64,000 nucleotides of DNA, taken from Komagataeibacter intermedius TF2. GTDB lineage: Bacteria > Pseudomonadota > Alphaproteobacteria > Acetobacterales > Acetobacteraceae. The notes below the pieces were generated by a model. It was not told the origin of the DNA. It ran no database searches and saw only the letters and a list, made by a program, of their open reading frames with translations. The stretch covers positions 1 through 64,000 of the forward strand of contig NZ_BANF01000100.1 in NCBI RefSeq assembly GCF_000964425.1, read 5' to 3'. Below are positions 53,283-58,168 of the stretch, piece after piece (within the stretch, counting starts at the first letter, position 1; each line of letters begins with the position of its first letter). The translations under genes and the position numbers were made by a program.

Positions 53283-55916
53283 ATGACCGAAACCAGCACC
53301 CCACCGGACAGCGCCCTCCCCGCCTATGACTTCCACACGGCCGAGCCGCAGTGGCAGGAACGCTGGGCTTCGTCAGGCATCTTCAATGTCCCGGACGTTC
53401 CCCCTGCCGACCGGCCCAAATATTATGTGCTGGAGATGTTCCCCTATCCGTCGGGGCAGCTGCATATGGGCCATGTGCGCAACTATACGCTGGGTGATGT
53501 GGTGGCGCGGTACAAGCGCGCGCGTGGCTTCAGCGTGCTGCACCCGATGGGCTGGGACGCCTTTGGCCTGCCGGCGGAAAACGCCGCGCGCGAACGCGGG
53601 GTGCATCCGGGCCAGTGGACGATGGACAACATCGCCGCCATGCGCGCGACGCTGAAACGGCTGGGCTTTTCATTCAACTGGGATCGTGAGATCGCAACCT
53701 GCCTGCCGGAATATTATGGCAAGCAGCAGAAGCTGTTCCTCGACATGCTCAAGGGCGGGCTGGTTGAACGGCGCGAAAGCTGGGTCAACTGGGATCCCGT
53801 GGACAACACCGTACTGGCGAACGAGCAGGTGGTCGATGGCCGGGGCTGGCGTTCGGGCGCGCTGATCGAACAGAAGAAGCTGTCGCAGTGGTTCCTGAAA
53901 ATCACGCAGTTCGCCCCGCAGCTGCTTGATGGCCTGTCCACCCTGCCGCGCTGGCCCGAACGCGTGCGCACCATGCAGGAACGCTGGATTGGCCGATCCG
54001 AAGGGGCCAGGGTCCGTTTCGCCCTGCATGAACCGCCAGCGGGTTTCGACATCGACCTTGATTCGATCGAGGTCTTCACCACCCGCCCCGACACGCTGTT
54101 TGGCATGTCCTTCCTGGCCATTGCGGCCGACCATCCGCTGGCGGCCAGGATTGCGGCCAAAAATGCGGCGGCCGGGGAATTCATTGCCGAATGCCAGCGT
54201 CTGGGCACGTCGGAAGAGGCAATCGAAACCGCTGAAAAGCGTGGATTCGACACCGGGCTGCGCGTCAGCCACCCCTTCATGCCCGATAAATCCTTTCCGG
54301 TCTGGATCGCGAATTTCGTGCTGATGGATTACGGGACGGGCGCGGTGTTCGGCTGCCCGTGCGGCGACCAGCGCGACCTTGATTTCGCGCGCAAGTACAA
54401 CCTGCCGGTTACCCCCGTGATCCTGCCGCCGGGGGCCGAGGCCGCGACCTTCACCATGACCGACAGGGCCTGTGACGGCCACGGCACGCTGTTCAATTCC
54501 GGCTTCCTGGACGGTCTGGATACCGAGACGGCGAAAAAGGAAGCGATCACCCGGCTGGAAGGCATGGGAATCGGTCAGGGCGTGGTCAACTGGCGGCTGC
54601 GTGACTGGGGCATTTCGCGCCAGCGTTACTGGGGCTGCCCCATTCCCGTCATCCACTGCACGGATTGCGGCGCGCAGCCGGTGCCCGATGACCAGCTTCC
54701 GGTCACGCTGCCTGAGGACGTGACATTCGACCGCCCCGGCAACCCGCTGGAACACCACCCGACATGGAAGCACGTGACCTGCCCCAAATGTGGCAAGGCC
54801 GCCGTGCGCGAAACCGATACCTGCGACACCTTCGTGGACAGTTCGTGGTATTTCGCCCGCTTCACCGCGCCACACGCGCCCACGCCCACCGTGCCTGCCG
54901 CAGCTGATGGCTGGCTGCCGGTGGACCAGTATATCGGCGGGATCGAACATGCGATCCTGCACCTGCTGTATGCCCGCTTCTTCACCCGCGCGATGCATGA
55001 GACAGGACACCTGCATGTGGACGAACCCTTCAACGGGCTGTTCACGCAGGGGATGGTCAACCACGAAAGCTACCGCGACGCGGACGGCAACTGGCTGTAT
55101 CCCGAAGAGGTCGAGCGCAGGGCCGACGGGGCCGTACGCCGCGACAATGGTGCGCCCGTCACCATCGGTCGCGTGGAAAAGATGTCCAAGTCCAAGCGCA
55201 ACACGGTGGCGCCCGTCGCCATCATCGAACGCTTCGGCGCGGATACGGCACGGTGGTTCGTACTGTCCGACAGCCCGCCGGAACGTGACATGGAATGGAC
55301 GGAATCCGGCGTTGCCGCGGCATCGCGCTTCCTGCAGCGCCTGTTCCGCCTTGTCCGCACGGTGGCGGAACAGACCCCGGCGGATGCCGCGTGTCCCGCC
55401 ACCATCTCACGCAATGCGGATGCCCTGCGCCGCACCACCCACCGCACCATCGCGGCAGTGACCGATGCGCTGGAAACCTTCAGTGTCAACGTCGCCGTGG
55501 CGCGACTGCATGAACTGACCTCCGCCATGGCCGATGCGGAAAAGACGGCAGGCGAGGACGGCATGGCGTTCGCCCGGCGTGAAGCGGCCACCACGCTGGC
55601 GCTGCTGTGCGCGCCCATGGTGCCGCATCAGGCGGAAACGATGATGGCGCTGCTTGAACCCGGTGGCCAGCCGGTGGTGGACCGCACGTGGCCGGTCGCC
55701 ATCGCGGACCTGCTGAAGGCGAACGAACTGACCATCGCCGTCCAGATCATGGGCAAGCTGCGCGGTACGATCGCCGTGCCGCCGGACATGCCCGCGGACA
55801 GGGTCATCGCCATGGCGGAAGCCGAACCCAACGTGGCGCGCCTGCTGGATGGCGCGCGGATCGTCAAGCGCATCCATGTGCCGGGCCGGATCGTCAACTT
55901 CGTGGTTGCGAAATAG
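53283..55916 (+). CDS. leuS: Leucyl-tRNA synthetase
   Basis: Class Ia synthetase that charges and proofreads tRNA-Leu. The 877-aa product shows [28 protein letters not shown] (HIGH as HMGH), the CP1 editing domain (about 225-420) with the threonine-rich motif [11 protein letters not shown], a leucine-specific Zn-like segment ([10 protein letters not shown] and CPKCGKAA), and KMSKSKRN for the catalytic loop. A C-terminal anticodon-binding domain and [13 protein letters not shown] end it. Length is typical. It is 102 bp after the DUF3576 gene and 3 bp before lptE. Confidence 0.97.
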
Positions 55917-55919
55917 CCC

Positions 55920-56777
55920 ATGGCGCATCCCGTCCGTCATCCTGTCCTGCTGGGCATCCTGCTAATGGTGGCGGGATGCGGCTTTTCGCCCATGTACAAG
56001 ACGACGGGAACCCATATTGGCGCGGATGGAAAACCCACCGTGGCCAATGTGGTGGCGGAACTGAAACAGGTGTACGTACCGGTCATCCAGGAACGGTACG
56101 GTCAGCAGCTTCGCCAGTTCCTGCAGCAGGATCTGGGCGGGGCGGGGCCGGAAGACCCGACCGGTTACGAACTGCGCATCAGCACCTACATCATGAACGA
56201 GGCGGTGGACATCCACGCGGACAATACCAGTGGCCGCACACGGACCACCGCCTTCGCCCACTGGCAGCTCTATACGCTGGGGGACAACCCACGCATGCTG
56301 GCGGGGGGGGATGCCTCGGTCGTGGATGGGGTCAACAATACATATGAACAGTATTTCGCCCTGACGCTGAACCTGGAAACCGTACGGACCCGCGTCGCCA
56401 AGAACATGGCCGAACAGGTCACCCAGCAGGTCGCGACGTGGTTCCGCACACATGCCCGCCCGGCGGTGGACGGATCGGTCGCGGACCAGAACCAGCCACG
56501 CTATGTCGATCCCAACAGCATCGTGAACCCCAATAACCAGATGCCATCCCAGCAGCCGGGTGCCGATGGCCTGCCCGCGCTGGCGACGGGCCGGACAGAT
56601 TCCCAGCTGAACGAGGAAAACAACGAAGGCAGCAGCCTGTCCACCCAAAGCGTCCCCATGGACAGCACGCCGCAATCCACCAGCGGCAACCGGAGCGGTA
56701 CGGGCACCATGGCCCCGGATGTCGATACATCCCCCTCCTCCGGCATCAGCATAGGCGGCGGGGGCGCGAACGAGTGA
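55920..56777 (+). CDS. lptE: LPS-assembly lipoprotein LptE
   Basis: Outer-membrane lipoprotein that plugs LptD for LPS export. The 285-aa product has lipobox LLMVAGCGFSPMYK (GCGF is the family hallmark). A compact LptE-like core follows (about 35-180; VYVPVIQERYGQQLRQFLQQDL, YELRISTYIMNEAVDIHADNTSGRTR, ARVAKNMAEQVTQQVATWF-like end). An extended C-terminal low-complexity tail of about 90 Asn/Gln/Ser/Thr/Gly residues is unusual. It lies 3 bp after leuS and overlaps holA by 4 nt, the normal alphaproteobacterial order. Confidence 0.88.
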   Translation: MAHPVRHPVLLGILLMVAGCGFSPMYKTTGTHIGADGKPTVANVVAELKQVYVPVIQERYGQQLRQFLQQDLGGAGPEDPTGYELRISTYIMNEAVDIHADNTSGRTRTTAFAHWQLYTLGDNPRMLAGGDASVVDGVNNTYEQYFALTLNLETVRTRVAKNMAEQVTQQVATWFRTHARPAVDGSVADQNQPRYVDPNSIVNPNNQMPSQQPGADGLPALATGRTDSQLNEENNEGSSLSTQSVPMDSTPQSTSGNRSGTGTMAPDVDTSPSSGISIGGGGANE

Positions 56778-57793
56778 AGATCGATGCCCGCGCCGTCAAC
56801 GCCACCCTGCAGGCCCCGGGTGCGCTGCGGGCCATTATCCTGCACGGGGATGACGCGGGGCTGATTCGTGAACGGGCCACGACCGCGGCGAAAGCGGTCT
56901 GCGCGGATCTGCACGATCCGTTCCGGGTCGCCATTCTGGGGCGCGAAGACCATGACCGGCTGGAAGAGGAGACGACCGCCCTTGCCCTGACGGGAGGGCG
57001 ACGCGTGGTCTGGCTGCGCGAGGCGGGTGACAGCCTGCTTGCCCCATTGCAGCGCAGCCTGGACCAGTCATCCGATACGCTGATAATTATGGAAGCGCTG
57101 GGCCTTGCGTCGCGTTCGAAGTTGCGTGCCTTTGCGGAAAAGGACAGGCAGTGCGGCGTGATCGGCTGTTACCCCGAAGAGGGACGGACGCTGGAAGCCG
57201 CCATCCGGCAGATGCTATCGACACAGAATGTAGGGATCGACCCCGATGCGCTGGGGTGGATGGTGGAACGCGCGGGGCCCGACCGCGCGGCGACACGCAG
57301 CGAGGTTGAAAAACTGGTCCTGTTCGCCGGTGCGGGTGGCAGGCTGGGGATGGAGGACGTGCGCGCGTGCATTGGTGACGCGGCGGGCGTATCACTGGAA
57401 GATGCGGCCTTTGCCGCCATGACGGGTGACCGCAGGGGGGCGGATGCCGCCGCGGAACGGGCGCTGACCACCGATGGCAGCAGTCCGGTCGCTTTGGCGC
57501 GCGTGCTGCTGTCGCACATTCACCGGCTGCGACGGGCGCGGATTGCGGTGGATGGCGGGGCAAGCCGGGCGGACGCCATGCGGCAGCTGCGTCCCCCCGT
57601 TTTTTTCAAACGCACCGACAGCTTCGGTCAGGCCATGATGATATGGTCCGCCAGCGCCCTGCTGCGCGCGGCGGAAGACACGCAGGCGCTGGAACTGGCA
57701 TGCAAACAGACCGGCAGCCCCGATGTGGTGCTGTGCCTGCGCCATATCGCCCGGCTATGCGCGCAGGCGCAACAGATGCGCAGACGGCATTAA
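56774..57793 (+). CDS. holA: DNA polymerase III subunit delta
   Basis: The delta subunit opens the sliding clamp as part of the clamp loader. The 339-aa product begins MKIDARAVNATLQAPGALRAIILHGDDAGLIRERA (GDD is the nucleotide-fold motif, degenerate in delta). It has ALTGGRRVVWLREAGD, WMVERAGPDRAATRSEVEKLVLF and a helical C-terminal collar (SPVALARVLLSHIHRLRRARI). The start is a GTG overlapping the lptE stop by 4 nt, so translation is coupled. A short AT-rich hairpin follows before the tRNA promoter. Confidence 0.9.
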   Translation: MKIDARAVNATLQAPGALRAIILHGDDAGLIRERATTAAKAVCADLHDPFRVAILGREDHDRLEEETTALALTGGRRVVWLREAGDSLLAPLQRSLDQSSDTLIIMEALGLASRSKLRAFAEKDRQCGVIGCYPEEGRTLEAAIRQMLSTQNVGIDPDALGWMVERAGPDRAATRSEVEKLVLFAGAGGRLGMEDVRACIGDAAGVSLEDAAFAAMTGDRRGADAAAERALTTDGSSPVALARVLLSHIHRLRRARIAVDGGASRADAMRQLRPPVFFKRTDSFGQAMMIWSASALLRAAEDTQALELACKQTGSPDVVLCLRHIARLCAQAQQMRRRH

Positions 57794-57866: not shown

Positions 57867-58168
57867 GTCCGCGTAGCTCAGCCGGATAGAGCACAGGATT
57901 CCTGGTTTGCAATTGGGCGTCACGACGGGAAACCACGTGGCGGATCTGCTCAAATTCGGGGAACGCTCTGGCAAATGCCGTGCCAATCCCGAGCCAAGGC
58001 CGGTTTTCCGGCAAGGTGTAGAGACTGGATGGGCAGCACCTGTCAACCGCATGCGGTTTATGGTGAAGGGACAGTCCAGACCACGAACGCCATATTCCTA
58101 TGGCGGCGGTGAAAGCCGAAGTGGTACGAATCCTGGGGCCGTGGGTTCGAATCCCGCCGCGGACACCA
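57867..58168 (+). tRNA. tRNA-Arg(CCU), split by a group I intron
   Basis: The two exons (57867-57903 and 58129-58168) together make a normal 77-nt tRNA. The acceptor is GTCCGCG/CGCGGAC, the D-stem GCTC/GAGC, and the anticodon stem CAGGA/TCCTG with loop TT-CCT-AA. The T-loop is TTCGAAT with stem GTGGG/CCCGC, and CCA is encoded. The anticodon CCU decodes the rare codon AGG. The intron lies directly after anticodon position 36. Without splicing the anticodon loop and stem cannot form, so the tRNA would be non-functional. It is the only tRNA found in the window. Confidence 0.93.
57904..58128 (+). other. Group I self-splicing intron in tRNA-Arg(CCU)
   Basis: A 225-nt intron with no open reading frame and all expected pairings. 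P1 joins CCT^GGTT to AATTGGG through a 3-nt loop, with U·G at the splice site (internal guide GGG 57915-57917). P2 is 57918-57924/57936-57942. P3 is CTGCTC/GGGCAG (57946-57951/58031-58036). P4 is TTCGGG/CCCGAG (57955-57960/57988-57993). P7, the guanosine site, is GACTG/CAGTC (58023-58027/58072-58076). P8 is AACC/GGTT. P9 is GCCATA/TATGGC (58089-58094/58099-58104). The terminal G is 58128. Segments CGGGAAACCACG, AAATTCGG and AAGGTGTAGAGACT match the short tRNA introns (subgroup IC3) known from Azoarcus tRNA-Ile and Agrobacterium tRNA-Arg(CCU). Confidence 0.9.

Follow-up and report, generated by a model that had tools for sequence, protein, structure and literature searches.

The tRNA-Ile(CAU) gene of Azoarcus and the tRNA-Leu(UAA) gene of cyanobacteria carry small group I introns in the anticodon loop; the host tRNA differs from the one considered here, and in Pseudomonadota we found relatives of our intron in tRNAs of both kinds, CAU and Leu(UAA). 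In tRNA-Arg(CCU), Reinhold-Hurek and Shub are said to have described an intron in Agrobacterium in 1992, which we take to occupy the same host gene and the same site as ours, and Paquin reportedly described tRNA-Arg(CCU) introns in alpha-purple bacteria in 1999. For acetic acid bacteria, Table 1 of a 2015 paper (PMC4596401) gives a tRNA-Arg intron in Asaia, Acetobacter, Gluconobacter, Komagataeibacter and Gluconacetobacter, and the gene is described there as "split by a sequence homologous to a group I intron" in 5 of 6 genomes, Komagataeibacter medellinensis included. A tRNA-Arg group I intron in acetic acid bacteria is already known. The locus described here comes from the same bacteria and concerns the same amino acid, with tRNA-Arg(CCU) introns found here in Komagataeibacter rhaeticus, Gluconacetobacter, Gluconobacter and Acetobacter, but the section of PMC4596401 on this gene gives no anticodon, structure or intron phylogeny.

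BbgpI, the tRNA-Arg(CCU) intron of Bartonella bacilliformis, is described as splicing in vivo and self-splicing in vitro (PMC7717549). Compared by description, BbgpI is like the intron in our window (the window being the whole 64,000-nt stretch of DNA that was analysed) in interrupting the same tRNA directly after CCU and in having stems P1 to P9, and the Bartonella tRNA, too, was found only once its intron was removed (PMC7717549). Splicing has been demonstrated for BbgpI and is predicted for the window intron.

The interrupted tRNA-Arg(CCU) gene and its intron

In intron mode (ARAGORN -i), the tRNA finder ARAGORN recovers a tRNA-Arg(cct) with a 225-base intron at exactly 57867-58168, the coordinates and intron length that the initial annotation had assigned. 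Joining the exons gives a 77-base sequence that ARAGORN calls as tRNA-Arg(cct) without an intron, its T stem having one G-U pair, which agrees with the proposal that the two halves form a tRNA. Without intron mode, ARAGORN reports no tRNAs in the whole window; that standard finders would miss the gene had been anticipated, and this tRNA-Arg(CCU) is indeed lost to a default search. The gene and its surroundings are laid out as follows.

53283-55916, plus strand: leuS ORF, upstream of the tRNA gene (Pfam and relatives)
55920-57793, plus strand: two further ORFs between leuS and the tRNA gene (ORF list)
57867-57903, plus strand: 5′ exon of tRNA-Arg(CCU), ending in the CCU anticodon, U36 being 57903 (ARAGORN -i, sequence)
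57904-58128, plus strand: group I intron of 225 nt, inserted after U36 (Rfam, ARAGORN -i, alignments)
58128, plus strand: terminal (omega) G of the intron (ARAGORN; G in 27 of 27 aligned introns)
58129-58168, plus strand: 3′ exon of tRNA-Arg(CCU), with CCA encoded (ARAGORN -i)

Neither of the two ORFs at 55920-57793, which from their place we presume to be lptE and holA, matches a Pfam family at E 0.01. As in the window, leuS has an interrupted tRNA-Arg downstream of it on the same strand in 6 of 80 named LeuS loci. The intron itself is overlapped by five ORFs, counting both strands; these match no Pfam family whatever at E 0.01, and no intron-encoded endonuclease was found among them.

Free folding of the intron is unremarkable (57905-58128 folded as a single sequence gives a z of -0.93 against shuffles); the evidence for a group I intron is comparative and comes from two alignments. 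Alignment 1 contains 38 intron cores and covers P3, P4, P5, P6, P7 and P8; over its 31 pairs, 99.2% of cells are paired, 13 pairs have changed on both sides, and none of 500 shuffles scores as high. Alignment 2 contains 27 tRNA-Arg(CCU) introns, all but one of the 28 references prepared, each flanked by 8 exon bases at either end, and its pairs were placed by hand. Its 59 pairs are standard in 99.0% of cases and 19 have changed on both sides, which again 0 of 500 shuffles equalled, and sliding the pairs by 1-3 columns as a control leaves 28-41% paired. The helices that covary in alignment 2 are P2, P3, P6a, P8 and P9a, while P4, P5, outer P6, P7 and P9 are invariant there and so speak neither for nor against the structure. 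The helices P1, P2, P3, P4, P7, P8 and P9 that had been read from the single sequence could all be placed, and the set is now:

57901-57917, plus strand: P1, in which exon CCU (57901-57903) and GGUU pair with AAUU and the guide GGG (57911-57917) (alignment 2)
57919-57941, plus strand: P2 with a GAAA tetraloop; 7 of 8 pairs changed on both sides
57946-57951 with 58031-58036, plus strand: P3; compensatory changes in both alignments
57956-57961 with 57987-57992, plus strand: P4; supported in alignment 1, invariant in alignment 2
57965-57966 with 57982-57983, plus strand: P5; supported in alignment 1, invariant in alignment 2
57993-57995 with 58015-58017, plus strand: P6; its outer part invariant in alignment 2
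57999-58003 with 58008-58012, plus strand: P6a; 5 of 5 pairs changed on both sides
58023-58027 with 58072-58076, plus strand: P7, forming a pseudoknot with P3; invariant in alignment 2
58037-58040 with 58062-58065, plus strand: P8; covaries, both alignments
58081-58084 with 58121-58124, plus strand: P9; invariant in alignment 2
58089-58093 with 58100-58104, plus strand: P9a; covaries
58107-58110 with 58115-58118, plus strand: P9b with a GAAA loop; one-sided variation only

The group I core of P3, P4, P6, P7 and P8 with its P3/P7 pseudoknot is thus present, and in 6 of the 38 cores of alignment 1 the last pair of P7 is A-U or U-A in place of G-C. At the 5′ splice site, the U57903-G57915 wobble and two C-G pairs of P1 occur in 27 of 27 introns, as does the terminal G (here G58128), in keeping with the claims that the insertion directly follows the anticodon and that the intron ends in G. 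The inner pairs of P1 are present in 20 of 26 to 27 of 27 sequences; no P1 pair has changed on both sides, and among the four inner pairs there are three that fail to form in 3 to 6 of the 27 sequences. A P10 of 3 bp is possible in 24 to 27 of 27. We take the intron to belong to subgroup IC3, and presumably the GAAA loops of P2 and P9b dock.

Searched at gathering scores with Rfam cmscan, the whole window has no match. With a relaxed threshold and 502 bases, the intron matches RF00028 (Intron_gpI) at 34.3 bits and E 4e-7; the covariance-model check that had been suggested therefore returns a match, though one under the gathering score of 50. The same is seen for the related loci, 6 of 8 of which match Intron_gpI at E 0.01 with 26.6 to 45.3 bits and none of which lies above 50, and the gathering score of RF00028 is a database cut-off rather than a biological feature. 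The register of P1 in the Rfam alignment differs from that of the hand-placed P1.

Proposed splicing and the state of the gene

The window intron most likely self-splices, as its Bartonella relative does, and we propose ordinary two-step group I splicing because of the structure and because of that relative. The pre-tRNA would fold so that the CCU at the 3′ end of the exon pairs with the guide GGG in P1, placing the U-G pair at the splice site, and a guanosine held in P7 would attack after U36. The freed exon, aligned by the 3-bp P10, would then attack after the terminal G58128, and the products would be the tRNA and a free intron.

The assembly contains 40 other tRNAs, whose anticodons include Arg TCT, CCG and ACG and no CCT, and a search of the same genome for an intact tRNA-Arg(CCU) pattern with up to 1 mismatch gave no match. 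The window intron is also the only group I match in the genome. With 943 contigs, and with tRNA-Asp, tRNA-Ile and Ala(TGC) absent from the list, the tRNA inventory is incomplete; within this fragmented genome, 57867-58168 is the sole tRNA-Arg(CCU) gene found, and the second intact copy that the initial annotation had named as the sign of a dead gene did not appear.

It could still be argued that a decayed remnant of an intron sits here in a dead tRNA gene, with AGG read by tRNA-Arg(UCU), which could do so by wobble and whose gene is present in the genome; a promoter and terminator scan near the tRNA gene also returned nothing, no sigma-70-like promoter being matched. We regard this as very improbable, because the core helices are intact and several of them covary, both exons are intact, a full-length match is present in 7 of 7 genomes of the genus, and an interrupted and an intact copy occur together in 0 of 299 family genomes (of the 23 genomes matched by both searches, 2 have no listed place for the match). 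Protein-spliced tRNA introns of the archaeal or eukaryal type also use the site beside the anticodon, but such an intron, or a chance insert, can scarcely be credited in the face of a group I core with covarying P3, P6a, P7 and P8 and an Rfam E value of 4e-7. The reading that we hold with great confidence is that 57867-58168 is a tRNA-Arg(CCU) gene, the only one found, that is interrupted after U36 by a 225-nt group I intron of the tRNA type, with a splicing chemistry proposed by homology to the Bartonella intron, vertical inheritance within acetic acid bacteria, and repeated gain or loss in the wider family.

Descent of the intron in Acetobacteraceae

Whether the intron descended vertically or was transferred had been raised at the outset, together with a comparison of other Acetobacteraceae, and that comparison points to vertical descent within acetic acid bacteria. 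A full-length interrupted gene is found in at least 115 of 299 family genomes (one of them in two pieces), including all 7 of the genus, the window's own genome among them, and the window intron is in this way kin to other alphaproteobacterial tRNA-Arg(CCU) introns. The intact-gene pattern matches 174 of the 299, and 23 of these are among the 115 interrupted, leaving 151 that look intact. The 23 interrupted genes match the intact pattern because the intron starts with AA; in 21 of them the match was placed at the interrupted gene itself, and for 2 the place is unlisted. A few of the one-mismatch matches to the intact pattern resemble tRNA-Arg(UCU). The core model R1 matches at least 140 of 299 genomes in the family, at least 49 of 385 in the class, where the count is of this intron lineage in any tRNA, and at least 41 of 398 in the phylum (13 outside the class); whenever R1 was run on over 40 genomes the filters were stricter and 7 to 10 first-look candidates were scored per genome, so the absences are soft.

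We compared the intron with LeuS, encoded upstream of it in the window. Among the 50 named genomes searched (of 80 loci), 23 have an R1 match, and in 22 of the 23 the intron sits in tRNA-Arg(CCU). The LeuS tree contains a clade that is intron-positive in 18 of 18 rows, made up of Komagataeibacter, Novacetimonas, Gluconacetobacter, Acetobacter, Gluconobacter, Swaminathania, Neokomagataea, Commensalibacter and one Acetobacteraceae MAG, and all 17 rows taken as acetic acid bacteria, the window included, have the intron. Two MAGs titled Asaia bogorensis (L269, intact, and L295, undetermined) were excluded from the acetic acid bacteria, their LeuS falling outside the clade; if its title is right, L269 would be an exception to the all-positive acetic acid bacteria. 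The 33 rows outside the clade comprise 23 intact, 4 undetermined and 6 labelled positive. One of these 6, L275, was rejected as a row positive for the tRNA-Arg(CCU) intron, since its intron sits in a tRNA-Leu(UAA)-type gene, and the 7 changes that parsimony gives on the LeuS tree were counted with L275 wrongly coded positive.

The distances of intron and LeuS are correlated, with r 0.77 in the 17 rows of acetic acid bacteria and r 0.60 when all 23 rows are taken (p 0.0005 in both cases). In the free intron tree the introns of these 17 do not form one group (3 changes), and a tree in which they do has the higher likelihood (lnL +7.06, p-AU 0.676). Nearest to the window intron is that of Komagataeibacter rhaeticus, followed by those of Gluconacetobacter and Novacetimonas, and the window LeuS is 93% identical to the LeuS of Komagataeibacter rhaeticus, which points to Komagataeibacter as the genus of the window.

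The intron is patchy in the rest of the family and, in any tRNA, in the class, and Paquin's 1999 title reportedly claims horizontal transmission in alpha-purple bacteria, both of which would favor a recent horizontal gain by Komagataeibacter. We nevertheless find such a gain highly unlikely, since every row of the LeuS clade is positive, the distances of intron and LeuS agree over the 17 rows, and the nearest relatives of the window intron are the ones just named. We conclude that the intron has been inherited vertically since the acetic acid bacterial ancestor, with gain or loss elsewhere, two events that parsimony counts cannot separate. The locus is a clear example of a group I intron long retained by vertical descent within one clade, with patchy gain or loss outside.

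Some tRNA-Arg(CCU) introns in the family are longer than the 225 nt seen here, at 314 (L142/L148, genome G066), 288 (L237) and 287 nt (L226). One genome, G169, has a truncated second copy, consisting of the 3′ half of the intron and the 3′ exon, for which attachment-site duplication or integration was considered. This was rejected, as the copy lies at the edge of a 1,922-bp exact duplication (L382 9961-11882, and L383) that also holds a tRNA-Met.

Relatives in other tRNA genes and on resistance plasmids

To see where else the lineage occurs, we took 201 loci, of which 189 were classified; L118 and L162 were dropped and L080, L082, L167 and L087 re-set by hand, giving 187 loci and 184 distinct introns. 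This sample is uneven, and is made up of 86 introns in Arg(CCU), 58 in Leu(UAA), 8 in Thr(GGU), 8 in Leu(CAA) at two sites, 7 in Lys(UUU) at two sites, 5 in Arg(UCU) at two sites, 5 in CAU tRNAs at two sites, 3 in Lys(CUU), 2 in Leu(UAG), which is doubtful, and 2 in Thr(CGU). Kin of the window intron hence occupy some 14 anticodon-loop sites in the Leu, Lys, Thr, Arg and CAU tRNAs of Pseudomonadota, at loci that include:

L072-L088, L115-L117, L140-L198 and others: Pseudomonadota loci with the lineage in Leu(UAA), Leu(CAA), Lys, Thr, Arg(UCU) and CAU tRNAs

On the intron tree, whose inner branches are weak and which drew long-branch warnings, the tRNA labels need at least 19 changes as against 84.9 when shuffled, and the Arg(CCU) label needs 3 changes for 86 rows as against 61.3. 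With so few changes, an intron would as a rule stay at its site and now and then move to another. In a test of the guides, which set aside 23 of the 184 introns in which no usable P2 loop was recognised, 158 of 161 introns have at least 3 pairs to their own exon. The own exon is strictly the best of all exon types in 9 of 161, and the guide is specific for Thr(GGU) only (7 of 7); it is seldom strictly best because several exon ends are alike, and the test by itself does not prove that guides follow the exon.

Vepritskiy reportedly described a tRNA-Leu(UAA) intron in a gamma-proteobacterium in 2002. Introns of tRNA-Ile2 are reported from Acidovorax and Burkholderia (PMC8450103). According to PMC5733544, the Arg, Gly and Lys tRNAs of cyanobacteria contain "group I introns" of 22-49 nt, a length that we judge too short for a group I core. 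Among the literature matches listed, from a search that covered few subscription papers, none described the Thr and Lys sites for Pseudomonadota. The intron family is probably under-counted, because the Rfam gathering score and default ARAGORN both miss the members tested. A family that is static in one clade and switches tRNAs elsewhere makes intron transposition testable.

Several loci stand apart from this pattern in detail. In Acetobacter papayae (L384), A. suratthaniensis (L385) and L084, a second intron of the lineage is read as lying in tRNA-Lys(UUU) after position 35, where ARAGORN names the tRNA SeC. In the tRNA-Leu(CAA) introns L077, L080, L187, L189 and L193, the 5′ exon ends in C34, so that a C-G pair would replace the usual U-G at the splice site. 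Gordonia phage Daredevil (L391) has an intron relative in what ARAGORN calls a tRNA-Lys(ttt) with intron, near the phage integrase gene.

A relative also occurs on plasmids. One kin intron, used as query, has matches of 60-80% identity in 1,270 of 72,556 plasmid records (close to 76% for almost every match listed), with 1,260 of the 1,270 covering at least 80% of the query, and it matches 625 of 5,426 complete E. coli genomes. When nine PLSDB plasmids were opened, aac(3)-IId was within the shown flank in seven; of the others, one is cut by IS26 (L394) and one is from Bradyrhizobium, with another intron and no resistance gene shown. The relevant loci are:

L387, L388, L389, L392-L396 (plasmids), L407 and L408 (E. 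coli): intron relative beside tmrB-aac(3)-IId, in all except L394

The two E. coli RefSeq records (L407, L408) have aac(3)-IId and no tRNA annotated there, and PLSDB tables carry no RNA genes and so cannot show tRNA annotation. In intron mode ARAGORN finds an interrupted tRNA in 3 of 3 plasmids examined (L387-L389) and names it "Stop"; from its sequence we read it as a putative tRNA-Leu(UAA). Among the introns compared, the best relatives of the plasmid intron are alphaproteobacterial tRNA-Leu(UAA) introns, at 86%. Of 75 genomes from the family to which the best relative belongs, 6 are 86% identical over nearly the whole tRNA-Leu with its intron and a seventh is 85% identical over most of it, and among the matches listed the adjoining tmrB part has no match in any of those seven genomes. 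A literature search found no paper combining "tmrB" and "group I intron".

On balance, with some reserve, we favor the view that the window intron is a member of one promiscuous lineage of tiny tRNA introns at these Pseudomonadota anticodon-loop sites, which would move rarely between tRNAs, the guide fitting the exon at every new site. The member in a tRNA-Leu(UAA) gene of alphaproteobacterial type would have been captured with tmrB-aac(3)-IId, would now be on more than 1,000 enterobacterial and Acinetobacter plasmids, and would mark the source lineage of that resistance module. Such a fossil tRNA intron next to aac(3)-IId could be of use in naming the donor of a common aminoglycoside-resistance gene. 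The Bradyrhizobium elkanii plasmid pUSDA76 (L390), in which ARAGORN reports no tRNA around the intron, carries an intron relative that is 89% identical to a tRNA-Leu(UAA) intron.
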